In this document: in pieces, positions 847-58,919 of the stretch
How the letters are laid out: every line of letters begins with the position of its first letter
Numbering within the stretch: position 1 is the stretch's first letter
Origin: Alphaproteobacteria bacterium
GTDB lineage: Bacteria; Pseudomonadota; Alphaproteobacteria; Rhodospirillales; Rhodospirillaceae
DNA: 64,000 nucleotides
Direction of reading: 5' to 3'
NCBI GenBank assembly: GCA_030835385.1
Contig: JAURPI010000025.1
Span: 1 to 64,000 of the forward strand
Made by a program: the position numbers and the translations under genes
The notes under the pieces: model-generated
Told to the model about the DNA's origin: nothing
The model's database searches: none
Seen by the model: only the letters and a program-made list of their open reading frames with translations

Positions 847-2022
847 TTAACTGGACCTGGTGCCGCAAAGATAACTCATGCCCCGCGCACCGCGCGACGC
901 ACCCATTACTTTTTCCGCCTCCACTTCTGGCTGGATGCTGTGGGCTTCAGCAGGACCAAACCCAATCTCAGAAAACACATCGTCGTTTTTCCAGCCATGG
1001 GATTTGGCAACGGCGGGTAGGTCCATATCCAGAACCGTGCCCCAGAACGGTTCATTGTTGTTGAAGGAATCCCAATCACGGGTGAAATCGAGCCACGGGT
1101 CTTCGTGGCGATAAGGTTGAATCTCCTGATGGACCATCATGCCACCGGGTTTCAGCAGACGACGACTTTCCTCAAGCACGTTGAACGTGGCCTGAAGGCC
1201 AGTCTCGTGTAGGAAGCCGGCAGACACGACCAGGTCGAAACTCTCATCTTCAAAGTCAGTTTTCTCAGCATTTTGTTGAGAAAAATGGACAGCGACGCCG
1301 AGATGCTCCGCCCGTCCATGACCATACCGCAGGCACGGTCCGCCGGTGTCGATGCCCCAAACCTCCGCTTCGGGGAAGCCCTCTTTAAGGGCAACCGTTG
1401 AAGCGCCAACCGTGCAGCCCATGTCGAGGATGCGGGTCGGTTTAAAATCTCGGAAACGAGTTTGAATGTACTTTGTCAGGGCGACGCCGAGACCATCATT
1501 GCGCGGTCCAAAATTCCCGTCCACATAAATGAAGGCGCCGCGATCATATACGGCGCCCATACCAACATCATCTTCCGTTACTTCCGTATGGTAGCCACCG
1601 GCCATGCAGTGATGATGGTTCTCGTCCAGGTAAGATGGAATCTGCACGTCAGGGTTGAGCGTCAGACTGCCTTTGACTGGACCATCGGCAATGCGGCGGA
1701 AGTTGGTGATCATGTCTGGCAACTGTCGCTCGACAGTTTCAGCAACCGAACTCCACATCATTTCTTGGGAGCAGCGTTGCAGGGCGCTGGACATACGGTA
1801 TTCGCGGGTCGGCAGCATGGCTTTGCGGACTTCTTGGCGAGTCTCCGGTGCGCGCCCATGACTTTTCATAAACGCGGGGCGCACAGTTTCCTCGTAGACC
1901 GTCTTGTTGTGTGGCGTGATGTCACTACGAATAAAATTCGACAGATGATGTACAAAATCCGTACGGGCCGCCTCGTCATGGGTCGGCACCGGCATCATCG
2001 GGTGGGCGGCCTGTTCACGCAT
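847..2022 (-). CDS. SAM-dependent methyltransferase with long N-terminal domain (paralogue A)
   Basis: 391 aa. A class I methyltransferase fold occupies about residues 195-350: motif I I-L-D-M-G-C-T-V-G begins at residue 198, the acidic motif II is W-G-I-D, and motif IV is F-D-L-V-V-S. Before it lies a roughly 190-residue helical-looking region with E-R-Q-L-P-D, Q-E-M-M-W and a H-H-H-C-M-A-G-G-Y motif. After it comes N-N-N-E-P-F-W. The same architecture recurs in the genes at 5623 and 51911. ATG 2022 was chosen over upstream TTG/GTG codons because GGAG lies 10 nt before it. A VOC gene lies upstream and a FAD oxidoreductase 9 nt downstream, both on the same strand. Methyl acceptor unknown; a small-molecule substrate is only a guess. 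Confidence 0.85.
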   Translation of the reverse strand: MREQAAHPMMPVPTHDEAARTDFVHHLSNFIRSDITPHNKTVYEETVRPAFMKSHGRAPETRQEVRKAMLPTREYRMSSALQRCSQEMMWSSVAETVERQLPDMITNFRRIADGPVKGSLTLNPDVQIPSYLDENHHHCMAGGYHTEVTEDDVGMGAVYDRGAFIYVDGNFGPRNDGLGVALTKYIQTRFRDFKPTRILDMGCTVGASTVALKEGFPEAEVWGIDTGGPCLRYGHGRAEHLGVAVHFSQQNAEKTDFEDESFDLVVSAGFLHETGLQATFNVLEESRRLLKPGGMMVHQEIQPYRHEDPWLDFTRDWDSFNNNEPFWGTVLDMDLPAVAKSHGWKNDDVFSEIGFGPAEAHSIQPEVEAEKVMGASRGARGMSYLCGTRSS

Positions 2023-2116
2023 CGTCACCAAGCTCCAACTTAGAAGGACCGTGTGAATCGCAAGCAGGATAGAACATTGTATGTGCTCGTCAAACCCTCA
2101 GCTAATAAAGCGGCTT

Positions 2117-2624: not shown

Positions 2625-4322
2625 TTAGTTCGCAAGGAAGCCAAGAATGGCTCTTGCCCTTGCGGTCGGGTCCGCCGGCCGTGCGGCGGCGGTTCCGTTG
2701 GCCAAGCCATTAACGGCATCCCCCGCCCAGCGGTACCGCACATCTTCTTCCGTTTCGAACACCAGAGTTGGAGCCGACACATCTGTCAGACATGCTTTAC
2801 CGTCGATGCTAAGTGCTGCTGCGATTGCATCGCCCGCGTGATCCCATTGTTTCAACGTATCAACAAGACGCATGTGTAAGTTCTGAGGTTCAATGTCTGG
2901 TGTGATTTTGCGGATCGCGCCAACGCCGCCATCATACCATGGCCAATGCACTGCCTGATCACGCAGCATATGCCAACACCGGTGTAAGTGTGTGCCATCC
3001 ATCTGAGGGCGCAGATCCGGCAAATAATTCACTTTCATTTCCGCGCTTAAGTCTGTGTCGGGAAGGGCGACACCATCAAGGACAAGGTGCTGCACGCGGT
3101 TACCGGCCTGACCAGCCAACGCAAGAGCGAGTGGTGTGCTCATCCCGTCTGCAACCAGGTCGACTTGGTCTAGGCCGAGGACATCTAAAGCGGCGATAAG
3201 GGCGGTGGCATAAGAGGCCGCGTCTGGTTGGGCCAGAGGATCGGAGTCATTGCAGCCTGGCAGGTCTAATCCGAAAGCCGGGCGACCCTGGCCAAGGGCT
3301 TTGAGAAAAGTTTCATCAGCTCGGGCGCTACCCGGTAAGTCGTGCAAGTACACGATCGGCCTACCTGTGCCCTGGCCAGCACGGCGGACCAAGATCTGGC
3401 CAGCTCCCGTATCCACATACCCCCGGGTAACAGCGCCGCCACCAAGTGGGTCCTTCAATGGATCGGGTGGAGAGAAATCACCCGCACCGTCGTGGTCTGC
3501 ATAATCGTTGAAGAGTTCACCAAGACGCGCTTTCCATGCGTCCCGGTCTGGCGATAAGCGTTCAATGGTGCTGCCGTCTGGAAGGGGGTCGGGCAGGGCA
3601 TCAAGGAAGGCGTAGAGCACATCATCTTCCCGCGCCATGAATACGCAACGCGCTGACAAAGTCGGTACCACGGGTACGGCCTTGTATCGCATCGCGGCGG
3701 AGTAGGCGTCCGAGAAGTGCGGCCCGGCCATGAACAGGTCCATGCTATAGGCCTGCATATATTTCATGTCGCGTTGAGCCATTGGCAGGCGGGTTGCCTT
3801 TGATTTGGCAAACCAAGGGAACCAGCGTTGGAAATCTCGCACCCGAGTCCATTCTTCACCTAAATAGCTGCCAGTACCCGTCACCTTAAACGGACGCATG
3901 TAGCTGTTGATGAAGGCGTGATCCGTGTCGCCCGCGGGTAAGGACAATCCGTCCATAATCGCGACCGCAACACGCTCTGGGTGATTGGCTGCAAAATCCA
4001 GCAAGATTTTCGAACTGGTGTGAAAGCCATAAACGGGGCAGCGCTCCACGCCGAACCCGAGAATTGTTTCTGCCAGCGCGCTGGAGAAATCACCAATCTC
4101 TGGTCGAGGTTCGGGCGGAAGAGGTGTCGAATTGCCGTATCCGGGTGTGTCGATAGCGATGGTCGTGAAGCGATCTGAAAAGTGTTCGACCAAAGGCTCA
4201 TGCAGAACCGACGATCGTGGGGAATCGTGCAAAAGAATAACCGGTGGGCCAGAGCCTGCCGCACGATAGTGGACCTGGCCGGCCCCAACATTAACGAAAC
4301 CCTTGCGAACTTTGGCCGACAT
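2625..4322 (-). CDS. Tandem alpha/beta-hydrolase fusion with atypical nucleophile elbows
   Basis: 565 aa, two alpha/beta-hydrolase domains in one chain, about residues 7-290 and 300-565. Each begins with the strand and oxyanion loop (V-I-L-L-H-D-S-P and I-V-Y-L-H-D-L-P) and continues with the D-T-P-G-Y-G-N-S or D-L-P-G-C-N-D-S stretch typical of the fold. The nucleophile elbow expected as G-x-S-x-G is G-F-H-T-S in domain 1 (His at residue 101) and A-D-G-M-S in domain 2 (Gly at residue 393), so neither has the catalytic serine. ATG 4322 follows GAGGGAG at good spacing and is preferred to a TTG five codons earlier. It could be a non-hydrolytic or differently catalysing member, or a binding protein. 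Located downstream of the double cupin gene. Confidence 0.85.
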   Translation of the reverse strand: MSAKVRKGFVNVGAGQVHYRAAGSGPPVILLHDSPRSSVLHEPLVEHFSDRFTTIAIDTPGYGNSTPLPPEPRPEIGDFSSALAETILGFGVERCPVYGFHTSSKILLDFAANHPERVAVAIMDGLSLPAGDTDHAFINSYMRPFKVTGTGSYLGEEWTRVRDFQRWFPWFAKSKATRLPMAQRDMKYMQAYSMDLFMAGPHFSDAYSAAMRYKAVPVVPTLSARCVFMAREDDVLYAFLDALPDPLPDGSTIERLSPDRDAWKARLGELFNDYADHDGAGDFSPPDPLKDPLGGGAVTRGYVDTGAGQILVRRAGQGTGRPIVYLHDLPGSARADETFLKALGQGRPAFGLDLPGCNDSDPLAQPDAASYATALIAALDVLGLDQVDLVADGMSTPLALALAGQAGNRVQHLVLDGVALPDTDLSAEMKVNYLPDLRPQMDGTHLHRCWHMLRDQAVHWPWYDGGVGAIRKITPDIEPQNLHMRLVDTLKQWDHAGDAIAAALSIDGKACLTDVSAPTLVFETEEDVRYRWAGDAVNGLANGTAAARPADPTARARAILGFLAN

Positions 4323-4420
4323 GGCGTGCTCCCTCAAACGTGACGGAGCAGACTAGCGCCCTCCGCCCTCGGGCGCGAGTGTCACGTGGGGTTGGCGGTC
4401 GAAATCTGTTCAGACAGCGG

Positions 4421-5269
4421 TCAGTAAGGCAGAGAGGGGTCGTAATCCGGCGCGAGACCGGCCGCCAGTTCATCTGGGAGATAAGGTTTGTAAGGTGCAT
4501 CCCATTGAACCGGATGAGCTTCATCTGACCATTCCGTCGTCAGTGGGCCACCCTTGCAGCGGAACAAACCTAGAGCCCCTGTGTTGGTGCCCACTGGTCC
4601 GTGGGGAATGCCGGGTGGTCGCCAAAAGTAGGCGCCCTTCTTAAGAACACCCATGGGCATGTGAAACTCGCCGGACAGCAAGAAGACTTCTTCGACAACC
4701 GGATGCGTTTCAAGTCGGTTGACCTCTCCGGTCATGCCCGTTTCATCGACATCCAACATCCAAGTGGTATCACCCGTATCCGGGTCTTGGCGTAAACCTA
4801 ATCGTTTTACGCCTGGTGCCGCGACTTTGGGATCAGTAGCGCTGCCCCAAGTTACGGACTTGGTCGGAATGCGCTCGACCAACTTGTCGCGGTTGTAAAG
4901 CCCGCTTGGCGCAGATCCTTCGACACGCTGATGCGCTCCCTCGAAAAATGTCATCACATCGGCACCGGTCGTTGACGTCATAGATGAGCGTTGGAACCCG
5001 GCCGGCAAATAGGCGTAGTCACCGTCTTCGTATGTCGTGCCGTTTATCGTGAGGGCGCCTGATAGAACGAATAACTCTTCATCGCTATCGACGTAATGAT
5101 CTTGTGCAAGGGTCCAGCCCGCAGGATAGCGCAGTATGGTGGTCACGGCCTTGGACGACTCATCGAAACTGAGGGGTTTTGCCTCTGCGCCAGGGCGTGC
5201 TGTGTCTTCGCCCATCGCACGCCAGGCGACAGCCTGGCACTGAATGAATTCGATGTGGGGCCGTGGCAT
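4421..5269 (-). CDS. Double-cupin domain protein
   Basis: 282 aa. Two cupin barrels. The first has E-E-L-F-V-L-S-G-A-L followed by G-D-Y-A-Y-L-P-A-G, the second E-E-V-F-L-L-S-G-E-F and K-G-A-Y-F-W-R-P-P-G-I-P-H-G, where the last His is in a metal-ligand position. Bicupins include dioxygenases, decarboxylases and isomerases of organic acids; no subgroup was recognised. ATG 5269 is preceded by AGAGGT at correct spacing and lies 13 nt after the small protein gene, in the same direction. A longer reading upstream would overlap that gene. It probably belongs to an operon with methyltransferase B, the small protein and the fused hydrolase. Confidence 0.83.
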   Translation of the reverse strand: MPRPHIEFIQCQAVAWRAMGEDTARPGAEAKPLSFDESSKAVTTILRYPAGWTLAQDHYVDSDEELFVLSGALTINGTTYEDGDYAYLPAGFQRSSMTSTTGADVMTFFEGAHQRVEGSAPSGLYNRDKLVERIPTKSVTWGSATDPKVAAPGVKRLGLRQDPDTGDTTWMLDVDETGMTGEVNRLETHPVVEEVFLLSGEFHMPMGVLKKGAYFWRPPGIPHGPVGTNTGALGLFRCKGGPLTTEWSDEAHPVQWDAPYKPYLPDELAAGLAPDYDPSLPY

Positions 5270-5282
5270 TCCAGCTACCTCT

Positions 5283-5609
5283 TTACGTGTTAGCTTCTTG
5301 ATCCGCTTGGCCTTCCAGCGTGGTGCGGGCTTCACGCACGGTCCGAAACAGGCGTCGGATTAATTGTTCTCTCTGGTCCCGGCGTTCTTCCCACGCTTTT
5401 TCATCGGGCTGCCAGTTTTCAATGTCAGAGCGGCTAACCGTGCCTTTCTCATCGAGAACTCGCTCAATGGTATCAAACCGGTCTGTGAGGACAGAGACCT
5501 CCGTGGCCAGTGCAATGATCATGGCATGCATCTGGTCCATGTTGGGATCGTCGAAATATTGAGGGCGCTTGCCTTGGGCCGGTCGGGGCGTGGTGATCTT
5601 ATCGGTCAT
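5283..5609 (-). CDS. Small coiled-coil-like conserved protein next to methyltransferase B
   Basis: 108 aa, highly charged, no signal peptide or membrane segment. The central region (about residues 28-50) has heptad-like hydrophobic spacing, M-I-I-A-L-A-T-E-V-S-V-L-T-D-R, followed by D-T-I-E-R-V and a second helix rich in Arg/Glu near residues 75-100. A clear homologue is at 53146-53511 in this window, also next to a methyltransferase of the same family. I do not recognise a named family. It starts 13 nt after the methyltransferase stop, so cotranscription is likely. A role as partner or regulator of the methyltransferase is an inference from this repeated proximity. Confidence 0.75.
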   Translation of the reverse strand: MTDKITTPRPAQGKRPQYFDDPNMDQMHAMIIALATEVSVLTDRFDTIERVLDEKGTVSRSDIENWQPDEKAWEERRDQREQLIRRLFRTVREARTTLEGQADQEANT

Positions 5610-5622: not shown

Positions 5623-6807
5623 TCAGGACTCGCGTTTGGTCATATGAGCATACCAAGCCTGTCCGCCCCCCCGGGTAGAGCCCATGAACTTTTTGTTCTG
5701 AACTTCCACAGCGCCAGTCAATTGATTGGCCTCCGCAATGCCCGGTCCGTTGCCCTGCCAGTAGTCGTTCCGGTTAAAACCAGCGGCTTCTGCGACATCT
5801 GCGAAGTCCATCTCATGCACGGCGCCCCAAAAGGGTTCGTTGTTATTGTAGGTGTCCCAATCTCGAACGAACTGAGTCCAAGGGTCTACCCCTTCGTATG
5901 GCGGTAACTCGGACAGCAAAAACACGCCGCCAGGCTTCAGCACACGATGGGCTTCTTTGAACACATTATAAACGGCGCTACGCGACATCTCGTGAAAAGA
6001 GGCCGGGCAGTTCACCAGGTCGAAGCCCTCGTCTTCAAAGGTCATCGCTTCGCCATTCATCTGGTGGAAATGAATTGCGACCCCCATGCTTTCTGCTCTC
6101 GCGTGGGCATATCGCAATACGGCGGGTCCTACATCGATGGCGTGAAGCTCTGCGTCGGGGAATGCCGACTTAAGGCCAGTGGTTGAGCCACCTGCCGTGC
6201 ACCCGATCTCTAGAATTTTATTTGGCCTCAAATCTGGGAAGGACGTAGCGATCATCAATGCGGCAGCTTTGCCAATGCCGTCCATGCGCGGTCCGAAAAG
6301 ACCTTGCGTGTAAATAAAGGCGCCTTTGTCGTAGAGCGCGCCGGCTGTAATGTCGTCATCGACGAGGTCGCCCGAGTATCCGCCCGGCATACAATGATGA
6401 TCGTTATCCGCCACGTAGGATGGGATTTCGAAATCCGGCTCCAGGTGCAAAGACCCAAGAGTATCGCCATCCCGAATGGTTTTAGCCGTGGCAATTAAGT
6501 CTGGCAGCTGCCTCTGAATTGTATCGTCGACCGAATTCCACATCATTTCCTGAACGGTGCGTTGGAATGAACTGGTCATTTGATAATAGGGATCGCGCAC
6601 CATCTCCTTGCGGATTTCGTGACGGCTTTCTGGGTCTCGGCCTTTCTCGGCTTTGATTTTTGGCAAGACCCGCCGCTGATAGGCTGCGGTGTTACCCGGC
6701 GTGATTTCATTGAGAACGTGCTTGCCGAGTTGATTGAGGAAATCTTGCCGCGCTTGTTCATTCACGGACGATTGCGGCAGAACGGCATGTGGCTCTTGGC
6801 GAAGCAT
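5623..6807 (-). CDS. SAM-dependent methyltransferase with long N-terminal domain (paralogue B)
   Basis: 394 aa, the same layout as the genes at 847 and 51911. An N-terminal region of about 190 residues carries Q-E-M-M-W-N-S-V, Q-R-Q-L-P-D-L-I and D-H-H-C-M-P-G-G-Y. The class I methyltransferase domain has motif I I-L-E-I-G-C-T-A-G-G, motif II H-A-I-D-V and motif IV F-D-L-V-N-C. A C-terminal tail includes W-D-T-Y-N-N-N-E-P-F-W-G. Start ATG with GGAG 7 nt upstream. First gene of a probable operon running to the small protein, the double cupin and the fused hydrolase. Substrate unknown; the paralogues differ after motif IV, so they may methylate different acceptors. Confidence 0.86.
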   Translation of the reverse strand: MLRQEPHAVLPQSSVNEQARQDFLNQLGKHVLNEITPGNTAAYQRRVLPKIKAEKGRDPESRHEIRKEMVRDPYYQMTSSFQRTVQEMMWNSVDDTIQRQLPDLIATAKTIRDGDTLGSLHLEPDFEIPSYVADNDHHCMPGGYSGDLVDDDITAGALYDKGAFIYTQGLFGPRMDGIGKAAALMIATSFPDLRPNKILEIGCTAGGSTTGLKSAFPDAELHAIDVGPAVLRYAHARAESMGVAIHFHQMNGEAMTFEDEGFDLVNCPASFHEMSRSAVYNVFKEAHRVLKPGGVFLLSELPPYEGVDPWTQFVRDWDTYNNNEPFWGAVHEMDFADVAEAAGFNRNDYWQGNGPGIAEANQLTGAVEVQNKKFMGSTRGGGQAWYAHMTKRES

Positions 6808-7928: not shown

Positions 7929-8540
7929 ATGACGGCAGGGGCGACGTATTTGGTTTTCGATCTCAATCGATTTGTGAAGGACTGTGAGCAGGCTGGCGGC
8001 GAGCTGAACTGCGCTGATTATGTCAGTGCCCGGTTGCGCTACGAGTTGAGCAACCACGTTTCAATGGCCGCCGCTCTTCCGCAGTATGAAGACGAAGAGG
8101 TGATATTACATGCCGACGATAACATCACGATCTTTCTTATCCAGCTGAGTCCCAATCTCAGATACCCGCCACACAACCACAATATGGCGACCACGATCGC
8201 GCTTTGCAGTGGCACAGAATCGGCGGTTTACTCTCGACTGCGTCAGGGCAAGCCTCAGGCAACGGTAACCCGCACCTATACGGCCGGGGAATTAGTGTTT
8301 CTCCCAGCCGATGTTATTCATGCCGTTGGTAACCCGGGCACGCAGAGATCTATGGCGTTGCATGTGTATTATGGAAACCTCCCGGTTGTCCGCCGCAGTT
8401 TGTGGGATTCTGAAACAGGACAAGAACTGCCGTTTACGGATGAGAATTATTTCAAATTGGCGCAGCCCCTAGATCCATCCCAGGCGTACAAGCCGCCTGA
8501 GCAAACTCAATGGGCGGGACGTCCAAGCACTACGCAATAG
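7929..8540 (+). CDS. Cysteine-dioxygenase-like cupin protein
   Basis: 203 aa from ATG 7929. The single cupin domain has P-P-H-N-H-N (two metal-ligand histidines) about residue 80, S-G-T-E-S-A-V-Y-S-R after it, and L-P-A-D-V-I-H-A-V-G-N with the third His. This matches the cysteine dioxygenase / COG5553-type cupins, which bind Fe(II) with three histidines and oxidise thiols with O2. The actual thiol substrate is not known. A much longer open frame extends upstream to 7629, but that part overlaps the divergent VOC gene on the other strand and shows no domain, so the shorter start is used. The last 11 nt overlap the convergent flavin monooxygenase gene. Confidence 0.75.
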   Translation: MTAGATYLVFDLNRFVKDCEQAGGELNCADYVSARLRYELSNHVSMAAALPQYEDEEVILHADDNITIFLIQLSPNLRYPPHNHNMATTIALCSGTESAVYSRLRQGKPQATVTRTYTAGELVFLPADVIHAVGNPGTQRSMALHVYYGNLPVVRRSLWDSETGQELPFTDENYFKLAQPLDPSQAYKPPEQTQWAGRPSTTQ

Positions 8541-9741
8541 CGTTAGCCCGTTCGAGCGAGTCCATGAGTGAGGACTCCCGTAAAAATTTATACGCTTTTG
8601 CTTCATCAGCAATGATGTCTTGCATCTCCTTGAGAGCGGCCATTCGTTTCCCGGTGTCTTTTTCGCGGTGTCGTTTATGATTGGCGTCTGATGTTTTCTG
8701 TATATCGGCACTGGCGGCGAAGTGGCGTTGTCGGGCGTAAAGATCGAGAAGACTGTTATCCTCTCCATTCCAAACACGAATCAGTTTGTCGGTGAGATTG
8801 AAGGCGTCATGGACGCCCCCATTCATACCGAAACCACCGGATGGGCTGTTTAAATGTGCGGCATCACCTGCCAATAGAATTCGCCCGACCCGCATGCGCT
8901 CGACCAAGCGGCGGTGCACGCTGTAGAGGCGCGCTGTGACAATCTCAAAGGGTCCGGCGCCAGGCAGAATGCGAGACAACCGAGACTGAACTTCTTGATC
9001 AGAGACTGCTGTTTCATCATCCATATCTATCGGAGGTGAGTAGCCGACCCGCCACATGTTTTTGGTTTGAAACATGCTGAACGACCAGCCGTCGGCCCAG
9101 AAATAGTTGACCCCACAAAGACCATCGATTTGTTTTTCGAAGGGAAAAGGCGTGCCAATGGATATAGACGTCGTCGGATAGGTTTCCCCGTCGAAAGCCA
9201 GGCCGAGATCCTTGCGCACCACACTGCTGGCGCCGTCAGCGCCGATCAGCCACAGCCCCTCCAGTCGCGTTTTCTCACCGTCAATGTCGACATCGATAGC
9301 AACACCCGTTTCGCTTTGACTGACCTTGGTCACATCGGCCTTGTGAACGAGAGCGCCCGGCTGTTCCGCTTCCAGCATCTTGCCGGCTTCGATGACTAGA
9401 TTGAGTTGTTCACACTGCAGTCGGTAGGGGTGGTTGGTGTCCTTGGCCAGCACGCTGAGGTCAAACACCGCCCGGTCTCCGGTTTCAAACATACAGTATT
9501 GCCAGGTGCGGGCTGGCCGCCCGAGGGCAACGAGTCGTTCACCAAGACCAAGTTCATCAAGTAGATCGACGGTGGGGGGATGAAAGGTCGAAGCGCGGGG
9601 CTCGGCATGTGGCAGATCAGCAGCTTCAAGAACAATCACAGGGATATTCGCGCGGGCGAGCCGCAAAGCCGCGACCAGCCCCACTGGCCCCGCCCCAACA
9701 ATGATGACGCGCTCATGGGCGGATGGGTTAAGGCCTGCCAT
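8530..9741 (-). CDS. FAD-dependent aromatic-type monooxygenase
   Basis: 403 aa, class A flavoprotein monooxygenase (PHBH/PheA/TfdB-like). The Rossmann dinucleotide motif is V-I-I-V-G-A-G-P-V-G-L-V near residue 12. The D-G motif G-A-D-G-A-S-S-V-V-R-K lies near residue 165, and L-L-A-G-D-A-A-H-L-N-S-P-S-G-G-F-G-M-N near residue 285 binds the FAD ribityl and NAD(P)H. Such enzymes hydroxylate phenolic rings using NAD(P)H and O2. The C-terminal thioredoxin-like domain seen in some relatives is absent. ATG 9741 begins just before the Rossmann strand; an open frame continues 24 codons upstream without a better start. Convergent with the cupin gene and divergent from the cfa-like gene. Confidence 0.88.
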   Translation of the reverse strand: MAGLNPSAHERVIIVGAGPVGLVAALRLARANIPVIVLEAADLPHAEPRASTFHPPTVDLLDELGLGERLVALGRPARTWQYCMFETGDRAVFDLSVLAKDTNHPYRLQCEQLNLVIEAGKMLEAEQPGALVHKADVTKVSQSETGVAIDVDIDGEKTRLEGLWLIGADGASSVVRKDLGLAFDGETYPTTSISIGTPFPFEKQIDGLCGVNYFWADGWSFSMFQTKNMWRVGYSPPIDMDDETAVSDQEVQSRLSRILPGAGPFEIVTARLYSVHRRLVERMRVGRILLAGDAAHLNSPSGGFGMNGGVHDAFNLTDKLIRVWNGEDNSLLDLYARQRHFAASADIQKTSDANHKRHREKDTGKRMAALKEMQDIIADEAKAYKFLRESSLMDSLERANAIA

Positions 9742-9848
9742 TATCGAAAATCCAACGTGCCTGTGAACGACTGACGGCGGACATTCGTCGCGCCTTGTGA
9801 AATACTCTAACAAATATTTGTTCGATCACGATCCCTGGAACCACTGCT

Positions 9849-14385: not shown

Positions 14386-15393
14386 CTACTCGTCGTCTTG
14401 TTGCGCCGCAAAGGCGGCCTTACCCTCTTGTACCAGGTCCCAAATCATTTGAGCTTCACCGCCGATACCATCAATGAGCCGACGGGACACGGGCGCCGTG
14501 GCTGCTTTCCACAGATCCCGTCGTTGGGCATCAATGCGATGCGTCGTGAAGCCCCATTTGTCTTGCTCGTCGAGGAAGGTGTTCCATTCAGCGCGGGTCC
14601 ATTGCCGCCCCTCGTTCACATCGATAAAGGAATTCAGCAAAATATCCCTTTGGCTTTCCGGCAATCGGTCGATCCATCGCTTTCTCATGACGATGATGGA
14701 GGTGGCGAAGGAGTGGTCGGTGAGGGTGAGGTGTTTGGCTTCGCTGGAAATGCCGGTCGGCACATACATGATAATCGCGCTTTCACCGGAGTCGACCAGT
14801 CCGGTCTGCAGTCCGGTGACAATATCCATGAAGCCCAGGGGGATGGCATCAGCGCCAATGGCTTCAGCAAACAAACGGGCGGACTCACTGGAGGAGGTGC
14901 GGAACCGCATCCCTTCTGCTTGTGTCGGAGCCAGGACCGGTGTCTTGCCGTAAATTTGGTTGAAGCCGATTTCGTCCCACTGAATCAGATGGACACCCTG
15001 TTCCGCCAACAGCTTTGAATAAGCCGCGAACAAATAGTTATCCATAATGAAGTCGGCTTCGGCGTAATTGTCGAAGAGAAACGGCGTATACAGCATCGCC
15101 ATTTCAGGTACGACGGTCGTGGTTGCTAGTCCCGACCAATTGGCCACGTGGACACGCCCGCGGCGAATGCCGTTTACTAAAATATCTTCGGAGCCCAGTT
15201 CACCGTAGATCAGCATGCGCATTTCGAGGTTGGGATCTCCCGCCGCCTCGACATTGGCTTGATAGGTCAGCCACTTCTTGTCACCGGCGGTGTCTTTCAC
15301 CCCCGTGCCGCCAACGGTGACAACGATGGCCTGACTCTCAATGGAAAGAGTTGAAATGAGAACGATGACGAAGACACGAAGCAGGGTGAGCAT
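14386..15393 (-). CDS. TRAP transporter solute-binding protein (DctP family), orphan 1
   Basis: 335 aa. Signal peptide of about 22 residues, then the DctP fold: L-E-M-R-M-L-I-Y-G-E-L-G-S-E in the first domain, G-M-R-F-R-T-S containing the conserved ligand-binding Arg, L-Q-T-G-L-V-D-S-G-E, and a C-terminal helix with I-G-G-E-A-Q-M-I-W. Binds a solute, usually an organic acid, in the periplasm for delivery to DctQM permeases. No permease gene is near; the only QM pair in the window is at 43852-45755. Cotranscribed with the exported VOC gene (14 nt gap). Confidence 0.87.
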   Translation of the reverse strand: MLTLLRVFVIVLISTLSIESQAIVVTVGGTGVKDTAGDKKWLTYQANVEAAGDPNLEMRMLIYGELGSEDILVNGIRRGRVHVANWSGLATTTVVPEMAMLYTPFLFDNYAEADFIMDNYLFAAYSKLLAEQGVHLIQWDEIGFNQIYGKTPVLAPTQAEGMRFRTSSSESARLFAEAIGADAIPLGFMDIVTGLQTGLVDSGESAIIMYVPTGISSEAKHLTLTDHSFATSIIVMRKRWIDRLPESQRDILLNSFIDVNEGRQWTRAEWNTFLDEQDKWGFTTHRIDAQRRDLWKAATAPVSRRLIDGIGGEAQMIWDLVQEGKAAFAAQQDDE

Positions 15394-24745: not shown

Positions 24746-25393
24746 ATGCTTATTCGATCCGTTGCGTCCCTCTTAGGGTCCACTTTGCTTGCGGGATGTT
24801 CGGTGGTGGGTGTTCGCGCTGGCACGGAACAACCTAAGTACGAAGTGGTAGCTCGACCGGCTGAAGGCGTTGAGGTTCGTCAGTACGGCAATCGTATTGC
24901 AGCTGAGGTGACAGTTAGTCGAGGACGAAGGGGTGCCAACGAAAATGCTGCCTTTGGCGCGCTCGCTGGCTACATCTTCGGGAAGAATCAAACGCGGACA
25001 GATATCGACATGACCTCCCCTGTCGAAAGCCGCACGTCTGAAAAAATTGCTATGACTGCCCCAGTCGAAACAGCGTCAACTGAACAGAGCATGACAATGC
25101 GGTTCTATTTGCCATCTGAATACACACTTGAGGATGTGCCTAAGCCTCTTAACCCAAAGGTGGCAATCATCCCAATATCGTCTGCAACAATTGCAACATT
25201 AAAATTCTCTGGTTTACGCAGTTCGACGAATGTTGCAACTCATACCGCTCAGCTGCTTGAACGCCTGGACGGAACATCCTGGACTGTTACCGGTGAGCCA
25301 GTTGCGTATTTTTATGATCCACCGTGGACGGTGCCGAACTTACGTCGTAATGAGATTGCTGTGACTGTTGAAAAGCAGGACGAGGCTACCTAA
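24746..25393 (+). CDS. SOUL-family heme-binding lipoprotein
   Basis: 215 aa from ATG 24746, with GAGGAG 9 nt upstream. The lipobox L-L-A-G-C with Cys at residue 18 predicts lipidation and membrane anchoring in the periplasm. The mature part follows the SOUL/HBP pattern: Y-E-V-V-A-R-P-A-E-G-V-E-V-R-Q-Y, then M-T-S-P-V and I-A-M-T-A-P-V repeats, then F-Y-L-P-S-E-Y and a C-terminal Y-F-Y-D-P-P-W-T-V-P. SOUL proteins bind heme or related tetrapyrroles; function in bacteria is unclear. A longer frame begins at 24671 but lacks a ribosome site and would bury the lipoprotein signal. It ends 4 nt into the convergent gene at 25390. Confidence 0.86.
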   Translation: MLIRSVASLLGSTLLAGCSVVGVRAGTEQPKYEVVARPAEGVEVRQYGNRIAAEVTVSRGRRGANENAAFGALAGYIFGKNQTRTDIDMTSPVESRTSEKIAMTAPVETASTEQSMTMRFYLPSEYTLEDVPKPLNPKVAIIPISSATIATLKFSGLRSSTNVATHTAQLLERLDGTSWTVTGEPVAYFYDPPWTVPNLRRNEIAVTVEKQDEAT

Positions 25394-26124
25394 AGGTTCT
25401 CCGTCAGTTCGACCAGTTCGTAATGGGTCTGCATGTAGCCGTCGACCTGCCCCTTGAGAAAGATGTAGTCGCCGTCTGTTGTCGTCCACACATTGTAGAT
25501 CGGATGTTCTTCTGGGAGGCCTTCCACTGCGACGAACTGGAAGTGGTGTGCCGTGAATGACCCGGCGCCCACGGTAATGTCTTCATCGCCAACGTAAATC
25601 ACGGTTGGTCGTGCCTCCGAAATCGTAGGTCCTGTCGCGCCGCGATGATCCGTGGATGAAACGAGTTGCGAGAAGGTTTGCCGCTCGCCTGGTTTGGAAA
25701 GATCCACAGAGGCGCATACCCAACCATCGTTCTGAATCGCGTGTCCCCCGAAGCCAGGGCAGACGCCCGTGTATGGCACGCGCTGCGATAAGCGACCTTC
25801 AAGTTTTGTCACTGTCTCGCATTCAGCAATGCCATCGGCGAAGCGATACCAACCTGATCCCCGGAACTCATCGCCTACGGTGATCCGCACAAAGGCGTCG
25901 ACCGGTGACCAATCTGCATCGGCAGTGACATGTACGAAGCGCAAAACACTGGGACGATCATCAATCTCACCGTGAGACATGATCGAGCGGCGGCCATCCT
26001 GATGCCGGGTCATGGTCCAACGTTCGCGCCCGCGCTCTTCGTCCATGCGGTCGGGCTTCTTTGAGGTATAGAGAAGTCGCCCCGTCCGCGTGACATGATC
26101 CCGCTGATGATATTCTTTTGTCAT
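25390..26124 (-). CDS. Conserved hypothetical protein, tandem family member 2
   Basis: 244 aa, no signal peptide or membrane helix. I do not recognise the family. It is clearly paralogous to the gene 14 nt upstream (26139-26897). Shared blocks include Y-T-S-K-K-P near residue 19, I-D-D-R-P-S-V near 54, G-A-T-G-P near 163, V-G-A-G-[ST]-F near 185, L-P-E-E-H-P near 203, T-T-D-G-D-Y near 215 and G-Y-M-Q-T-H-Y-E-L near 230. The many aromatic and Asp/Gly residues suggest a beta-rich, perhaps lipocalin-like or ligand-binding fold, which is only a guess. Confidence 0.78.
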   Translation of the reverse strand: MTKEYHQRDHVTRTGRLLYTSKKPDRMDEERGRERWTMTRHQDGRRSIMSHGEIDDRPSVLRFVHVTADADWSPVDAFVRITVGDEFRGSGWYRFADGIAECETVTKLEGRLSQRVPYTGVCPGFGGHAIQNDGWVCASVDLSKPGERQTFSQLVSSTDHRGATGPTISEARPTVIYVGDEDITVGAGSFTAHHFQFVAVEGLPEEHPIYNVWTTTDGDYIFLKGQVDGYMQTHYELVELTENL

Positions 26125-26138: not shown

Positions 26139-26897
26139 TTAGCCGACCGTTTTCTCAAATTCCATCAGCTCGTAATGGGTTTGCATGTAGCCTGCGACGC
26201 CTCCTTTTAGGAAGGTGTAATCCCCGTCCGTCGTCGTATAGACCTGATAGGGCGGGTGCTCTTCGGGTAAATCATTGTTGGTGGGCACTTGGAAGTGGTG
26301 GGCATTGAACGTCCCGGCACCCACTGTAATTTTCTCGTCACCCAGGTATTCCATGTCGAGGCGCAGTGGGTAAAGCATCGGGCCTGTGGCGCCACGGTGA
26401 TCGGGAGAACACAGCAGCAATTCGTCGACACTTTGTATGCCAGGACCTTTGCTTAGGTCGTAGTGGGCGAAGTGCCAACTGTCACAGGCGATAGCATGAT
26501 TCTGGAACGACTTTAGTGGTCCGTGTTTGTGGTTCATGCGCTGTGACACACGTCCTTCAAGTGCGGTAAACGTTTCGCACTCAGTGTAGTCGTCGTACAT
26601 CTTAAACCAGCCGGTGCCCATAAACTTGTCGGCAACGGTGAGCCGGACAAAACAGTCTTGCGGCATCCAGTTTGAATCGACCGTATAGGTCGCATCTCTC
26701 ATCACAGAAGGCCGATCATCGATTTCGGTATGCACACCAATTGTGCGACCGCCGTCACCGTATTTGGTAATGGTATAAAATTCGCGTCCACGCTCCTGGT
26801 CCATGCGCTCCGGTTTTTTAGACGTGTAACCAATAACACCGCGAACGACGGTATGTTCGATTTGAGTGATGGGCTGATTCGGATCAGTTGCAGTCAT
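26139..26897 (-). CDS. Conserved hypothetical protein, tandem family member 1
   Basis: 252 aa, first of the tandem pair. The same conserved blocks as the gene at 25390 appear in the same order and spacing, with the N-terminus about 6 residues longer. Cytosolic by appearance. C-terminal V-Y-T-T-T-D-G-D-Y-T-F-L-K-G followed by G-Y-M-Q-T-H-Y-E-L is nearly unchanged between the two, so it is probably the functional core. Divergent from the YciI gene, with 118 bp between. Function unknown. Confidence 0.78.
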   Translation of the reverse strand: MTATDPNQPITQIEHTVVRGVIGYTSKKPERMDQERGREFYTITKYGDGGRTIGVHTEIDDRPSVMRDATYTVDSNWMPQDCFVRLTVADKFMGTGWFKMYDDYTECETFTALEGRVSQRMNHKHGPLKSFQNHAIACDSWHFAHYDLSKGPGIQSVDELLLCSPDHRGATGPMLYPLRLDMEYLGDEKITVGAGTFNAHHFQVPTNNDLPEEHPPYQVYTTTDGDYTFLKGGVAGYMQTHYELMEFEKTVG

Positions 26898-27358: not shown

Positions 27359-28369
27359 ATGAGCCGTTTTTTGATTGCCGCATTCTGCGTCTTGCTGAGT
27401 TTGCCGACCGCATTGGCAGACCCGTTAACTGGGCGAGCCGCTGGTAGTGTGCCGAAGGGATCGATCTGGGATGAGCACTGGCAGTTCCGCAAGAGCGTGC
27501 TGATGGGCAGCCCCGAAGTCGACTTCGAATATTACATATATGGCGAGCTCGGCAATGAAGAAGAGATGGTGAATAGCCTTCGTCGCAACCGGGTGCAAAT
27601 TTCGTCTGCATCGTTGTGGGGGTTGTCTTCGACGATCCCAGAGGCTGCCGTACTTTCATTGCCCTATCTGTTCGAAAGCCCGGAAGAGGCGGATTACTTT
27701 TACGATTGCTGTGCCGGTGACATCATCAGGACTTACCTAGAAGCCATCGGTATCACGCACCTCGGTTGGTCAGAGGCAGGGTGGACAGGGTTCTACGGCC
27801 CCAAGAGCTATGTAGACCCAGCTCTCGTGAAAGGTGAGAAACTGTGCACACCGTCGACTCCGTCTGTTGCGGTGTTCTTCCGATCTCTCGGTATCGATAC
27901 GGTGTTTCTCGGTATTGGGGATGTTGTGCCGGCGCTGCAAACCGGGTTGGTCGAGGGCGGCGCATCCAGTTTGCCGTGGTATGTCAATGCCTTCAAAGAT
28001 CATGCGCCTCACTACACCCTGACGGGTCATCACTACGAGAGCACAGTCATCATGTCCTCGAAGAAGTGGCTCGACTCAGCAACCCCCGTGCAGCGCGATG
28101 TGATCGACAAGGCCTTCAACGTCTTTCCCAGTCAGCGGGCGGGTGTTCGCGAAGATGCCGAAAAGAAGATCGATGGTCTGCGTGAAGCCGGTGCGCTTGT
28201 TTACGATCTGACGGCGGAACAGCGCGCGCGATGGATTGCGGCAGCGCAGGCGGTGCATCCGGCCATACTGCGCGACATTGGTGGTGATGCGGAAGCGGTC
28301 TATGCGCAGGTGTTGGCGGCGAAAGCCGAATTTCAGGCCCGCCACGGCCAAAATACTTTCGGCGAATGA
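27359..28369 (+). CDS. TRAP transporter solute-binding protein (DctP family), orphan 2
   Basis: 336 aa. Signal peptide M-S-R-F-L-I-A-A-F to A-L-A-D (about 20 residues), then the DctP fold with F-E-Y-Y-I-Y-G-E-L-G and L-Q-T-G-L-V-E-G-G-A. At the place where the other four copies in this window have an Arg before the binding helix, this one has E-K-L-C-T-P, so the usual carboxylate-binding Arg appears to be Cys. The ATGA overlap with the next gene implies translational coupling to a VOC protein. No permease gene adjacent. Confidence 0.86.
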   Translation: MSRFLIAAFCVLLSLPTALADPLTGRAAGSVPKGSIWDEHWQFRKSVLMGSPEVDFEYYIYGELGNEEEMVNSLRRNRVQISSASLWGLSSTIPEAAVLSLPYLFESPEEADYFYDCCAGDIIRTYLEAIGITHLGWSEAGWTGFYGPKSYVDPALVKGEKLCTPSTPSVAVFFRSLGIDTVFLGIGDVVPALQTGLVEGGASSLPWYVNAFKDHAPHYTLTGHHYESTVIMSSKKWLDSATPVQRDVIDKAFNVFPSQRAGVREDAEKKIDGLREAGALVYDLTAEQRARWIAAAQAVHPAILRDIGGDAEAVYAQVLAAKAEFQARHGQNTFGE

Positions 28370-38435: not shown

Positions 38436-38789
38436 GGCCCGCCCCCTTATTTTTATTGCGCGACCGTTTGCGCGCATCCCTGAACGGGGTATAGCATCCA
38501 GGCTTAGCGGGGACCAAGGTGCGCCGTCTATATATGTCGAGTCGATAGCGTGGGGCGCTTATCTTAACGCTCGAATCAAGGCCATACGCACTCACTTTTC
38601 ATCCAAATTCAAGGGAGCGGGCAACCTGATTCTGGCCGGAACCGGACCTCCTGGGGGGTGGGCCGCATTTCTTGTCGGCGCGTATTCGCTGCTCGGGTAC
38701 GAAGGGAGCTTGCGCATTGCCAACCTACGCTGCGACCTGAAAAACTGGGTGAGAACACAGGCTGCGGAGACGATGAACAGGGAGGCAAA
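38436..38789. other. 354-bp divergent intergenic region
   Basis: It lies between the divergent membrane protein (start 38435) and the Sel1-like protein (start 38790). The plus frame is open from an ATG at 38434, giving up to 124 codons, but no family, signal or ribosome site supports it. I see no clear repeat or promoter box. Confidence 0.4.
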
Positions 38790-39410
38790 ATGCGAGTCAT
38801 TCTAGCGACAACCACATTCGTATTGGCGATTACATTTGGTTTGGCCACGGTGTCTAATGCGGCACCCGATCCGGAAGCTGTGACGGAGTGTGACAAGCTT
38901 GCGTCCCACGGTTCAGATCCAGAGCGTGTTGCGCCGGGAGTTGGTCAATCAAGTATGCGCAAAGCGGCGGCGATTGCCGCGTGCTTAGCCGATACCGCGA
39001 TGCAGCCAGAGAACCGACGTTTGCGATACTTGCTGGGGCGGGCGTATTTCTACTCTGGCCGCGCGGCCGACGCGATGCCGCATCTCATTTTCTCTGCGGA
39101 GGCGGGCCATCGGCAGTCTCAATTCGTGCTTGGTTATATTTATGACAGTGGCCTTCAAGAGGTTGAGCAAGACAAGTGTAAGACCGAGTCTCTCTGGCTA
39201 CGGTCGGCACGCCAGGGCCGGTTTGCGGCTTTGGTGAGTTATCCTCACCATGTGGTGCGTGGACAGTTCGACGGCTGTGAGGTTCAAGCAAGCATTGCCG
39301 AAATGGCTGGCTTCTTGGAGACGGCTAAGGGCATGGCATCGGATTACTATCGCCGCATGTGGACGGCTGACGTGACAGAAGATTTCAATTCTTACAAAAA
39401 AGGACGTTAA
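38790..39410 (+). CDS. Exported Sel1/TPR-like protein, tandem copy 1
   Basis: 206 aa from ATG 38790, with GGGAGG 4-6 nt upstream. Signal peptide of about 24 residues ending S-N-A-A. The mature part has helix-turn-helix repeats like TPR/Sel1: L-R-Y-L-L-G-R-A-Y-F-Y-S-G-R-A-A-D-A near residue 77, A-G-H-R-Q-S-Q-F-V-L-G-Y-I-Y near 108, and L-W-L-R-S-A-R-Q-G-R-F-A-A. Four Cys (in T-E-C-D, A-A-C-L, D-K-C-K and D-G-C-E) are conserved in all three copies, which points to two disulfides in the periplasm. First of three tandem paralogues. Likely protein-protein interaction; partner unknown. Confidence 0.82.
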   Translation: MRVILATTTFVLAITFGLATVSNAAPDPEAVTECDKLASHGSDPERVAPGVGQSSMRKAAAIAACLADTAMQPENRRLRYLLGRAYFYSGRAADAMPHLIFSAEAGHRQSQFVLGYIYDSGLQEVEQDKCKTESLWLRSARQGRFAALVSYPHHVVRGQFDGCEVQASIAEMAGFLETAKGMASDYYRRMWTADVTEDFNSYKKGR

Positions 39411-39414
39411 AAAA

Positions 39415-40014
39415 ATGAGATACATTTCATTGGCTGCAGCATTGGTCGCGTTGGCTTTTTCTGGTTCGGCTTCTGCCGAAGGGGATTACATCACGGAATG
39501 TGATGCTTTGGTCTCTCACCCCGAAGATCCTGATCGTATTGCGCCTGGCGTGGGCGATGTTCTTTTGCTCGCAGGTCGGGCTGCTTGTGAAGCGGCGGTA
39601 GCAGAAGATCCCGAAAACCGTCGCTTACGCTATCAATTGGGTCGTGTGTTGTTCTACGCGGGCGACACTGAAGACTCGCTTCCTCACCTGGAGTTCGCAG
39701 CTGAAGCTGGTTCCAAGCAAGCCCAGTTTGTTTTGGGGTACATCATTGATGAAGCCCTGCAAGGTCTAAAGCGCGATGCATGTAAGGTTGAGGATTTATG
39801 GGTGCGTTCCGCACGTCAAGGCCGCTTCGCAGCTCGTGTCAGCTATCCGCGCAATGTGGCACTAGGAAAATTCAAGGGCTGCGAGATCCAGGCGAGTTCG
39901 TCTGAAATTAACAGCTTCCTAGATGCGGCTGGAGAGCAGGCTGATGGGTACTACCAGCATATCTTAGTGGAAGAGGTGGCTGCCACTTACGCAGCCTCTG
40001 ATCATGCCAAATAA
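39415..40014 (+). CDS. Exported Sel1/TPR-like protein, tandem copy 2
   Basis: 199 aa. Signal peptide of about 22 residues ending A-S-A. Same plan and same four Cys positions as copy 1: I-T-E-C-D, A-A-C-E, D-A-C-K, K-G-C-E. Repeats include L-R-Y-Q-L-G-R-V-L-F-Y-A-G and A-Q-F-V-L-G-Y-I-I. Starts 4 nt after copy 1 and overlaps copy 3 by 11 nt, so the three are one operon. Confidence 0.82.
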   Translation: MRYISLAAALVALAFSGSASAEGDYITECDALVSHPEDPDRIAPGVGDVLLLAGRAACEAAVAEDPENRRLRYQLGRVLFYAGDTEDSLPHLEFAAEAGSKQAQFVLGYIIDEALQGLKRDACKVEDLWVRSARQGRFAARVSYPRNVALGKFKGCEIQASSSEINSFLDAAGEQADGYYQHILVEEVAATYAASDHAK

Positions 40015-40633
40015 AAAAAGTCGCGTTACCTGTGCGGCCATCGTCTTTTCTATGTGTTGCTTCGCTGGTTATTCCAGCGGGGCGGCACAAGAGGCGATCA
40101 CCCTTTGTGATCGCCTTGCCGCCCACCCCCTAGACCCAGACCGTATTTCTGAAGGTGTGCCGACCTCTGATGTTGATCAACCCGCTGCTATTGCGGCTTG
40201 CGAAGCTGGTTTGGCGGATGACCCAGGCAACCCACGTCTGACCTACCAGTTGGCGCGGGTCTATTTTTATAATGGGCGGAGTGCCGAAGCCATTACGACG
40301 ATGGAGAAATCGGCAGAGGCCGGACACCGTCAGGCCCAGTTTGTGATGGGTGCGCTCATTTCCAACAAAAGGCCCGATGCTTCTGACAATATTTGTGATG
40401 CCGAGGCGTGGTGGGCGAGATCAGCGCAGGCAGGTCGCTTGGCGGCGCAAGTGTCTTACGTGCGTCATGTCACCAAGGGCTTGTTCGATGACTGCGAACT
40501 TCATGCCAATGTAGATGATATGGCAGCTTTTCTGGATAATGTTCGCGCCGTTGGGGGGCGGGATTATTATTTACGGCTCCTTATGGCAGACTTAACTGAA
40601 GATCTGGCTGCATACCGCGCCGCCAATCGATAA
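40004..40633 (+). CDS. Exported Sel1/TPR-like protein, tandem copy 3
   Basis: 209 aa; its ATG lies inside the last codons of copy 2 (11-nt overlap). Signal peptide of about 28 residues. The same four Cys positions and repeat blocks occur: L-T-Y-Q-L-A-R-V-Y-F-Y-N-G, A-Q-F-V-M-G, W-W-A-R-S-A-Q-A-G-R-L-A-A. This copy is the most diverged at the N-terminus. Followed after 30 nt by the MDR reductase gene. Role unknown. Confidence 0.82.
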   Translation: MPNKKSRVTCAAIVFSMCCFAGYSSGAAQEAITLCDRLAAHPLDPDRISEGVPTSDVDQPAAIAACEAGLADDPGNPRLTYQLARVYFYNGRSAEAITTMEKSAEAGHRQAQFVMGALISNKRPDASDNICDAEAWWARSAQAGRLAAQVSYVRHVTKGLFDDCELHANVDDMAAFLDNVRAVGGRDYYLRLLMADLTEDLAAYRAANR

Positions 40634-40663: not shown

Positions 40664-41692
40664 ATGGCCGATACAAACAAACAAATTCAACTTGCACGTC
40701 AACCAGAGGGCGAGCCAAAAGTAAGCGACTTTCAGGTGGCAGAGACGGACATTCCGGCTGTAGGGCCCGGCGAGTTTCTTGCCCGCAACATCTACCTGTC
40801 TCTTGACCCTTACATGCGAGGAGCCATCTCTGGTCGTCACATGGGGCATAACCGATTGAACCAGGGCGACCTAATTGGTGGGCGCTGTGTTGCGCAGATT
40901 GTCGAGTCCAAACACGCCGATTACGCTGAAGGTGATTACATTGTCATAGAATCTGGGTGGCAGCAGTTCTGCGTGTCCGACGGCGGCGCGAAGGATGAAG
41001 TACGCAAGCTCGATCCAAATGGGGGCCCCTTGTCAGCGGCGCTCGGTGTGTTGGGGATGCCAGGACTCACCGCTTGGGCAGGGGTGGAGCGCCTCGCGCA
41101 GCCAGGTCTGGGTGACACGTTTGTTGTCACTGCTGCGGCCGGACCTGTTGGCGGCACAGCGGGACAACTTGCCAAGGCCAAAGGTTGTCGTGCGGTGGGA
41201 ATTGCAGGCTCTGACGAGAAATGCCGTATCGTCGTCGAGCAGTATGGGTTCGATGCGTGTGTAAATTATAAGAAAGATAATTTTGAAGAGGAGCTAAAGG
41301 CTGCCTGTCCTGATGGTATCGACGTTTACTTTGACAACGTCGGCGGTCCGATCCTCGACACGATTACCAAACAACTCAGCTTGTACGGCAAGATCGTCAT
41401 GTGTGGGCTTGTCTCTCAGTATAACCGCAGCGGCGAAGGTGATTTTCATGGCCACAATATGGGGCCCTTTGTTGGTAAACGTGCTCAGTTGCTCGGGCTT
41501 GTCGTCTATGACTACTACGATCAAATTGATGAGTTTCTTAAAGCAGCCGTGCCCCTGGTTAAGGCGGGCCGTTTGAATTTTCATGAAGATCGAATTGACG
41601 GATTGGAAAACACGCCGGCTCATTTTGCCAAGTTGATGAGCGGTCAAAACGTTGGCAAGGCCATGGTGACCATCGGACCTGAAAAGACCTAG
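40664..41692 (+). CDS. NADP-dependent MDR oxidoreductase (CurA/LTB4-dehydrogenase-like), copy 1
   Basis: 342 aa. Zinc-free medium-chain reductase: L-S-L-D-P-Y-M-R near residue 46, A-A-A-G-P-V-G near 157 as nucleotide loop, V-G-I-A-G-S-D-E-K-C near 180, Y-F-D-N-V-G-G near 226, and the C-terminal E-N-T-P-A-H-F near 318. Members reduce alpha-beta double bonds of enones using NADPH. Starts with ATG; tandem with a paralogue 16 nt downstream. Confidence 0.9.
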   Translation: MADTNKQIQLARQPEGEPKVSDFQVAETDIPAVGPGEFLARNIYLSLDPYMRGAISGRHMGHNRLNQGDLIGGRCVAQIVESKHADYAEGDYIVIESGWQQFCVSDGGAKDEVRKLDPNGGPLSAALGVLGMPGLTAWAGVERLAQPGLGDTFVVTAAAGPVGGTAGQLAKAKGCRAVGIAGSDEKCRIVVEQYGFDACVNYKKDNFEEELKAACPDGIDVYFDNVGGPILDTITKQLSLYGKIVMCGLVSQYNRSGEGDFHGHNMGPFVGKRAQLLGLVVYDYYDQIDEFLKAAVPLVKAGRLNFHEDRIDGLENTPAHFAKLMSGQNVGKAMVTIGPEKT

Positions 41693-41708
41693 CGGAGCGA
41701 TCATCACC

Positions 41709-53026: not shown

Positions 53027-53145
53027 CGTGGCTCTCCGTAATGTCTCTTTAAGGGTGGCAGGCTCACCAGTATTACAGTCATAATATCGTATTACAGGGT
53101 AAAAACTCAAAGGCCGGACGGACCCGGCTGGTTGTGGGGCGCAAA

Positions 53146-54546: not shown

Positions 54547-54681
54547 ATAAGTCACGCGCCTGATCGCTTTGAATTTACTGATCTTGGCATGTCGGTGTGA
54601 GCGTCTACAATGCACCTTAATCGATCAGACGGTGTGCTGGCGTCATGAAAAGCCAGAAGCGCCTGACTCATGGAGGGATGA

Positions 54682-58892: not shown

Positions 58893-58919
58893 AAGCGCTG
58901 ACGCCAGAAGAGAGGCCTT

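Follow-up and report, generated by a model that had tools for sequence, protein, structure and literature searches.

A family of small proteins encoded beside class I SAM methyltransferase-fold proteins: a putative two-subunit enzyme of catabolic-looking gene clusters

We describe small partner proteins (SM) and methyltransferase-fold proteins (MT) that are encoded side by side in catabolic-looking gene clusters, and the best reading of the pair is that of a two-subunit SAM enzyme. SM is probably a dedicated small subunit; MT, the large subunit in this reading, has the class I SAM methyltransferase fold and carries a helical domain of its own at the N-terminus. Support for this reading comes from the homology of the SMs, the near-contact and mostly same-strand gene order, co-occurrence across genomes, co-divergence of the two proteins, and two models of read-through chains in which SM is docked. 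The window (the whole stretch of 64,000 nucleotides that was analysed) is the start of contig C13 of the source genome, an assembly of 3.28 Mb in 47 contigs.

RESULTS AND DISCUSSION

Small partner proteins and methyltransferases in the window

The window encodes two SMs and three MTs:

5283-5609, minus strand: SM B, small partner protein, 108 aa, ATG start
5623-6807, minus strand: MT B, class I SAM methyltransferase-fold enzyme of 394 aa, paired with SM B
53134-53511, plus strand: SM C, second small partner, 125 aa from a GTG start
51911-53026, minus strand: MT C, divergent from SM C, ATG start
847-2031, minus strand: MT A, no adjacent SM seen

An alternative ATG start of SM C at 53146 (53146-53511) gives a protein of 121 aa, and for MT C the ORF tool placed the start at a TTG (53110), as against the ATG at 53026. 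The first-pass annotation had proposed that the 108-aa and 121-aa proteins are homologues that share a motif, and that both genes adjoin the same methyltransferase family. BLASTP bears out the homology, with 34/97 identical residues (35%), no gaps, and an E value of 4e-20 for the single comparison; the quoted motif is present in both proteins, as IIALATEVSVLTDRFDT in SM B and ITALVGEVSILKDRVDT in SM C. The start of SM B lies 13 nt past the stop of MT B, SM C is divergent from MT C, and the three MTs do belong to one family, in which MT A and MT C are 47% and 39% identical to MT B, respectively.

MT A had been singled out as lacking a partner. A profile search likewise found no SM beside it; however, MT A is not exceptional in this, because 26 of the 49 MT ORFs of the source genome have no adjacent SM. 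MT A is the sister of MT B in a tree of the source genome's MTs, SM B sits 3.3 kb upstream of it on the same strand, and the contig begins at base 1 of the window, only 846 nt downstream of MT A.

Copy number and placement in the source genome

With SM B alone as the query, 23 SM places were found across the source genome (E 0.1), 21 of them beside an MT. Iterated profile searches of 32 stretches plus the window yielded 24 SM ORFs together with 49 MT ORFs (two of the MT ORFs are truncated at contig ends); 47 MT places were detected at E 1e-20 in a whole-genome MT profile search. Twenty-two of the 24 SM ORFs lie no more than 410 nt from an MT (20 on the same strand, two divergent). A whole-genome SM profile search returned the same 24 ORFs and three fragments at contig starts, making 27 places; the fragments on contigs C28 and C22 are each just upstream of an MT, and the one on C7 has no MT on its contig. 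Overall, 24 of the 27 SM places adjoin an MT, the exceptions being on C14, C32, and C7.

About 3.4% of the source genome is close enough to an MT to count as adjacent, and the nominal probability of finding 22 of 24 SM ORFs there is 1.6e-30, a figure that serves as a guide only since paralogous pairs are not independent. The placement of SM beside MT in this genome is not due to chance. These results point to a bacterium that carries more than 20 SM-MT pairs, in which the pair was copied many times. Seen from the MT side, 23 of the 49 ORFs have an adjacent SM, one of them having two, and a few of those without one are at contig ends.

An array of at least four MTs and three SMs is conserved between the source genome (C10:60000-76000) and five other loci (L151, L154, L155, L168, and L180), with two SMs in tandem behind one MT. 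This arrangement suggests mixed assemblies or shared subunits.

Distribution and adjacency in other genomes

Among 41 relatives, including the source genome, 11 encode SM and the same 11 encode MT. These carriers comprise 7/7 members of the genus, 4/18 from other genera of the family, and 0/16 from other families of the order, with 12 to 36 SM matches and 18 to at least 49 MT matches per carrier. In a sample drawn evenly from the class (385 genomes; thresholds of E 1e-4 for SM and E 1e-40 for MT), SM and MT were each found in 25 genomes, 23 of which were common to both. Two genomes had SM without MT (G047 and G411) and two had MT without SM (G100 and G264). Excluding the source genome, the shared genomes number 22 and are spread over 15 families; the nominal hypergeometric probability of this co-occurrence, which ignores relatedness, is 1.5e-32 (2e-31 without the source genome). 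In a phylum-level sample, SM occurred in 4 of 398 genomes, including the source, and two of the four belong to another class.

Adjacency outside the source genome was examined in two sets. The first, here termed distant, consisted of 40 stretches covering 42 of the 67 SM places in the other genomes of the class sample, at least one for each of 24 genomes. Thirty-three of its 40 SM ORFs are within 600 nt of an MT, three have an MT 1.3-1.6 kb away (L094, L096, and L103), and four have none in the stretch (L102, L118, L119, and L120), so that seven distant SM ORFs, like three of the 27 places in the source genome, lack an adjacent MT. For the SM places in G047 (E 1.2e-5) and G067 (a frame of 85 codons), no ORF was recovered, and neither stretch contained an MT. 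The second set was selected by MT: contigs of named genomes were scanned with seven MTs, and the best 80 of 397 relatives gave 79 loci. Among these, 68 have an SM within 700 nt, positioned downstream on the same strand in 65, upstream in two, and downstream on the other strand in one. Of the remaining 11, L194 has an SM 873 nt upstream; no SM occurs in the other ten loci. The MTs without an adjacent SM in the MT-selected loci (11/79) and in the source genome (26/49) indicate that not all MTs need SM in cis.

Carriers include Caulobacter, Sphingomonas, Novosphingobium, Blastomonas, Stenotrophomonas, and Lysobacter, as well as Nostoc, Methylonatrum, a Candidatus Binatia, and a Myxococcota MAG, although the titles of MAG records may be wrong. 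Random placement of the small gene in other genomes, which would have spoken against the pairing proposed in the first-pass annotation, was thus not found, SM being near MT for 33/40 distant SM ORFs and in 68/79 MT-selected loci.

Co-divergence of the two proteins

We compared SM and MT trees for 139 pairs (22 from the source genome, 33 distant, and 84 from named genomes), of which 136 have both genes on the same strand. The patristic distances obtained for the two proteins were correlated (Mantel Spearman 0.85, p 0.001; none of 999 permutations as high). For the 22 paralogous pairs of the source genome, with one MT entered twice, the correlation was 0.61 (p 1e-4; 9,999 permutations, best shuffle 0.50), and it is not due to the species tree, because all 22 pairs are in one genome.

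In a midpoint-rooted tree of 48 of the 49 MT ORFs of the source genome, with one short ORF left out, SM-bearing MTs occupy the deepest branches and most SM-less MTs are nested among them; the outlier, SM-less ORF C29:45415, is not. From this topology we infer that the pairing is probably ancestral and that SM was lost or came to be shared for some copies. Covariation between SM and MT columns gave top scores above those of 30 shuffles, linking residues of the long SM helix to the PGGY loop and HETS motif of MT. It was dropped as a guide to the interface since phylogeny confounds it and the shuffles do not keep relatedness.

The functional pair proposed from the sequence is therefore supported by placement, by presence and absence (23 shared genomes of 25 and 25), by tree covariation, and by two docked models (below), and the pairing would be physical or functional. 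Adjacency and co-divergence are also expected if the whole block is merely duplicated together, so that SM and MT might only travel together as an operon while SM does something separate, such as regulation or transport, and makes no contact with MT. The occurrence of SM without MT beside similar genes would fit such an arrangement. We consider it improbable in view of the predicted docking and of pairing that persists despite shifting gene neighbours across Alphaproteobacteria, Gammaproteobacteria, Binatia, a cyanobacterium, and others.

Structure models and fold

Twenty pairs, from 19 named loci, have MT and SM in the same frame, separated by a single stop. Two of these pairs were folded in AlphaFold as read-through chains, with the intervening stop read as glycine and with alignments of 128 and 107 rows drawn solely from the window and loci L141-L219. 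The chain from a Rhodospirillaceae MAG (L167) had a pLDDT of 90.2 and a pTM of 0.85, and that from Caulobacter endophyticus (L190) a pLDDT of 87.9 and a pTM of 0.86. Because pTM is an average over all residues as seen from one of them, its value with SM undocked would be expected to lie at or barely above the MT share of the chain, about 0.76 in both; to reach the observed values, the mean kernel of the remaining residues must be at least 0.36 (L167) and 0.42 (L190). As both pTM values exceed the undocked ceiling, they support docking of SM onto MT in the two pairs, as predicted here from single tethered chains, which differ from multimer predictions.

SM had been described as coiled-coil-like. 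The L167 model predicts one long helix (residues 415-448) followed by four shorter ones (453-458, 463-480, 482-492, and 495-508), a helical architecture that does not appear to be simply a coiled coil.

The MT part of the model adopts a class I fold, and its N-terminal region is helical. In VIA-align, the best row for the L167 model was 4wxh (Z 16.4, 3.0 Å over 213 residues, 13% identity), a comparison that hardly tests the SM part; the top rows were relatives of DnrK (a list including DnrK, RdmB, and TamK) tied with many other methyltransferases. The Pfam family Methyltransf_25 matched MT B at E 2.2e-20 (above its cut-off), MT A at 4.6e-18, and MT C at 5.1e-20. SAM-binding residues G202, G206, and the invariant D225 are present, with the motifs intact. 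The MTs thus belong to the class I SAM-dependent methyltransferase fold, with methyl transfer itself being a predicted activity.

Pairing and immediate gene contact would fit equally well if SM assisted MT folding or stability only transiently, as a private chaperone, and were not a subunit of the working enzyme, and the many MTs of the source genome with no adjacent SM (26/49) are in keeping with such a helper. We judge this unlikely: the predicted docking is onto a folded MT, and co-divergence suggests a lasting interface.

Family status and likeness to known systems

None of 59 SMs matched any Pfam family at E 0.01, and NCBIfam returned only three scattered weak families, each matching one or two SMs. 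Weak Pfam and NCBIfam matches of single SMs (MukF_M, DptG, and others) were below cut-offs or not common to the SMs and were rejected. A candidate relative, the N-terminus of nitrile hydratase alpha, was also rejected: the match was to a single chain, weakened from E 0.0023 to 0.033 once the profile was widened to 59 rows, and depends on a single 24-residue stretch that is present twice in that chain (i-Evalue 35). No natural MT-SM fusion was found among the long frames re-examined around SMs, which proved to be overlapping frames.

The closest likeness in role is to Trm112, also a small protein, whose class I SAM methyltransferase partners include Trm9, Trm11, Mtq2, and Bud23. Several of its partners depend on Trm112 for their stability, and Trm11 and HEMK2 need it to bind SAM (PMC5372719). 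SM is not a member of the Trm112 family, as it has no Pfam match, is predicted to be all-helical, and, in SM B, lacks cysteine, whereas Trm112 works via a zinc knuckle and a beta-zipper. Moreover, one Trm112 serves several enzymes that modify tRNA, rRNA, and eRF1, while SM genes accompany individual MT genes in a catabolic-looking setting. By this analogy, SM is best read as possibly Trm112-like in role and unrelated in sequence.

The MTs share their class I fold with the anthracycline-modifying DnrK/RdmB/TamK family, the source of the best, tied VIA-align rows. Unlike MT-SM, no small partner subunit is named for that family in the sections of PMC10491745 that concern RdmB. None of the window's MTs reached the gathering score of PF00891 (22.3); MT B scored 12.2 bits, MT C scored 18.4 bits, and MT A was not listed. 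We take the PF00891 O-methyltransferases to be the DnrK/RdmB group. The SAM domain of MT B also resembles UbiE/COQ5 and passes the Pfam Ubie_methyltran cut-off (43.7 versus 20.1 bits); it is not a UbiE equivalog, since NCBIfam TIGR01934 gave 40.9 against a cut-off of 158.35. In contrast to UbiE/COQ5, MT has about 170 extra N-terminal residues and occurs in tens of copies in the source genome.

The pair also occurs on plasmids pJE1 (Sphingomonas) and pTomTYG65b (Sphingobium), each with one MT place and SM directly after MT. In pJE1 the two are annotated as 'class I SAM-dependent methyltransferase' and 'hypothetical protein' and have TonB receptor, MFS, MmgE/PrpD, FAD oxidoreductase, and hydantoinase genes as neighbours; MFS, TonB receptor, and alcohol dehydrogenase genes are near the pTomTYG65b pair. 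These neighbours differ from those in the window. Searches of the open-access literature found no paper on the SM-MT pair, on pJE1, or on a nitrilase/TonB/methyltransferase cluster, nor did we recognise any account of this MT family having expanded.

Gene neighbourhood

MT B and SM B lie in a block of same-strand genes that includes the following:

8530-9813, minus strand: FAD-dependent monooxygenase (FAD_binding_3) at the head of the cluster, also in L141 and L142
6875-7822, minus strand: VOC protein of 315 aa upstream of MT B (Glyoxalase, E 1.1e-4; L142 orthologue 60% identical)
4421-5335, minus strand: ChrR-type cupin directly downstream of SM B (Cupin_7, E 4.6e-22), in the same place in L141 and L142; its true start is probably near 5269
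2625-4337, minus strand: alpha/beta hydrolase of 570 aa with two hydrolase stretches, in the same operon place in L141 and L142
2117-2602, minus strand: glyoxalase/dioxygenase (VOC) protein (L141 orthologue 69% identical)

With both VOC genes, the block in the window reads FAD monooxygenase, VOC, MT B, SM B, cupin, hydrolase, VOC. The order FAD monooxygenase, MT B, SM B, cupin, alpha/beta hydrolase is kept in two other genomes (L141 and L142), in which the MT B orthologues are 81% and 70% identical and the SMs beside them 73% and 66% identical to those of the window. L141 is without the upstream VOC by this test, and in L142 the VOC at 2117-2602 has no better than a 25% match, which lies at a greater distance and on the opposite strand.

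Recurrent neighbours elsewhere include FAD monooxygenases, PF01565 oxidases, isochorismatase-type and arylmalonate-decarboxylase-type proteins, and CN hydrolases, together with MmgE/PrpD, hydantoinase-like, TonB-receptor, and MFS genes recognised from the pJE1 annotation or from reading the sequences. Because of these recurrent oxygenases, oxidases, and hydrolases, most SM-MT pairs are in clusters that, judged from gene content, look catabolic and not biosynthetic. A toxin-antitoxin or defence role was considered and dropped in light of this setting and the many copies per genome.

Several further features were observed. In several Sphingomonadales loci (L207, L204, L215, and L219), a gene of the CN-hydrolase cluster is directly upstream of the MT-SM pair; the L207 copy is a PF00795 carbon-nitrogen hydrolase by test and starts with a Tat-like RRSVL stretch. 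The window contains five DctP-type TRAP solute-binding proteins (14386-15393, 27359-28369, 45842-46843, 50871-51914, and 53521-54615), of which only one seems, by eye, to be flanked by membrane subunits (43852-45755). Two adjacent proteins of about 250 aa (25390-26124 and 26139-26897) are alike by eye and have no Pfam match at 1e-4. At 38658-40633, three secreted-looking proteins (199-250 aa) encoded in a row are also alike by eye, and the first of them matches no Pfam family at 1e-4. Tandem duplications seen by eye among quinone-oxidoreductase-like (40664-42719) and thiamine-diphosphate-enzyme-like (57132-60665) genes fit a window rich in duplicated genes.

A clade of MTs with Tat-like signals

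Twelve of the 49 MT ORFs of the source genome open with an RRTLF-like pattern and a hydrophobic stretch, mostly with an A-x-A-like end, as judged by pattern and eye. These MTs are on contigs C22, C28, C31, C40, C47, C6, and C4 (e.g., L059:5064-6260, plus strand). The 11 of them in the tree form one clade together with three members that lack the pattern, one of which is cut by a contig end. With one clade member as the query, 40 of 45 MT ORF rows from 30 loci in 10 genomes carry the pattern; overlapping loci count a few of these ORFs twice, and the five without it include non-clade or truncated MTs. The pattern was found in 0/108 MT ORFs of named loci and 0/40 distant MT ORFs, sets that had been selected for resemblance to MT B or for proximity to SM. 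Four Tat-clade proteins of the source genome still match SAM methyltransferase models, and some members adjoin an SM without such a signal (on C40, C6, and C4) or an SM fragment (on C22 and C28).

Export of the Tat-clade MTs is predicted from these N-terminal patterns. To our knowledge, SAM is not known to be present in the periplasm, and we found no paper on an exported methyltransferase in the open-access literature. The clade thus raises a separate question, namely the role that a SAM-fold enzyme would have outside the cytoplasm. Signals for a compartment in which SAM is not known to occur, the catabolic rather than biosynthetic look of the clusters, and the presence of DnrK, RdmB, and TamK in the tied list of closest folds would all suit a large subunit that keeps SAM as a non-consumed cofactor, as RdmB and SlnM do, with SM shielding the active site. 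This version is compatible with SM as a subunit, and we regard it as having a small chance of being correct, given that the SAM-binding motifs of the MTs are intact, DnrK itself methylates, and many ordinary methyltransferases score equally. In RdmB and SlnM, SAM is required but its methyl group is not transferred (PMC10491745). It is a long shot that MT-SM is a non-methylating family in which bound SAM acts as a fixed electrostatic cofactor in the breakdown of natural aromatics; if so, Tat-clade MTs, folded and SAM-loaded in the cytoplasm, could turn over in the periplasm.

Proposed mechanism and significance

With SM as a dedicated small subunit, SM and MT would form a stable complex in the cell, and where their genes abut the subunits may be made together through translational coupling. 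Such coupling is excluded for the two divergent SM-MT pairs of the source genome and hence is not essential. By analogy with Trm112, SM may complete or stabilise the active-site region of MT and so permit binding of SAM or substrate. The enzyme could then modify an aromatic or enolic intermediate of catabolic pathways, as the FAD monooxygenase, VOC, cupin, and hydrolase genes of the window would suggest. Repeated duplication of the pair, with SM lost or shared for some copies, would have given a set of variants, presumably for different substrates.

The pairing gives a family of uncatalogued 'hypothetical proteins' a partner. MTs of this family may be unstable or inactive alone, and co-expression of both genes is therefore advised. 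Cultured carriers in Caulobacter, Novosphingobium, Sphingomonas, Stenotrophomonas, and Nostoc make the pair testable. In the source organism, more than 20 paralogous pairs in a 3.3-Mb genome, several of them near FAD monooxygenases, VOC proteins, and hydrolases, amount to an enzyme radiation in an uncultured alphaproteobacterial lineage.
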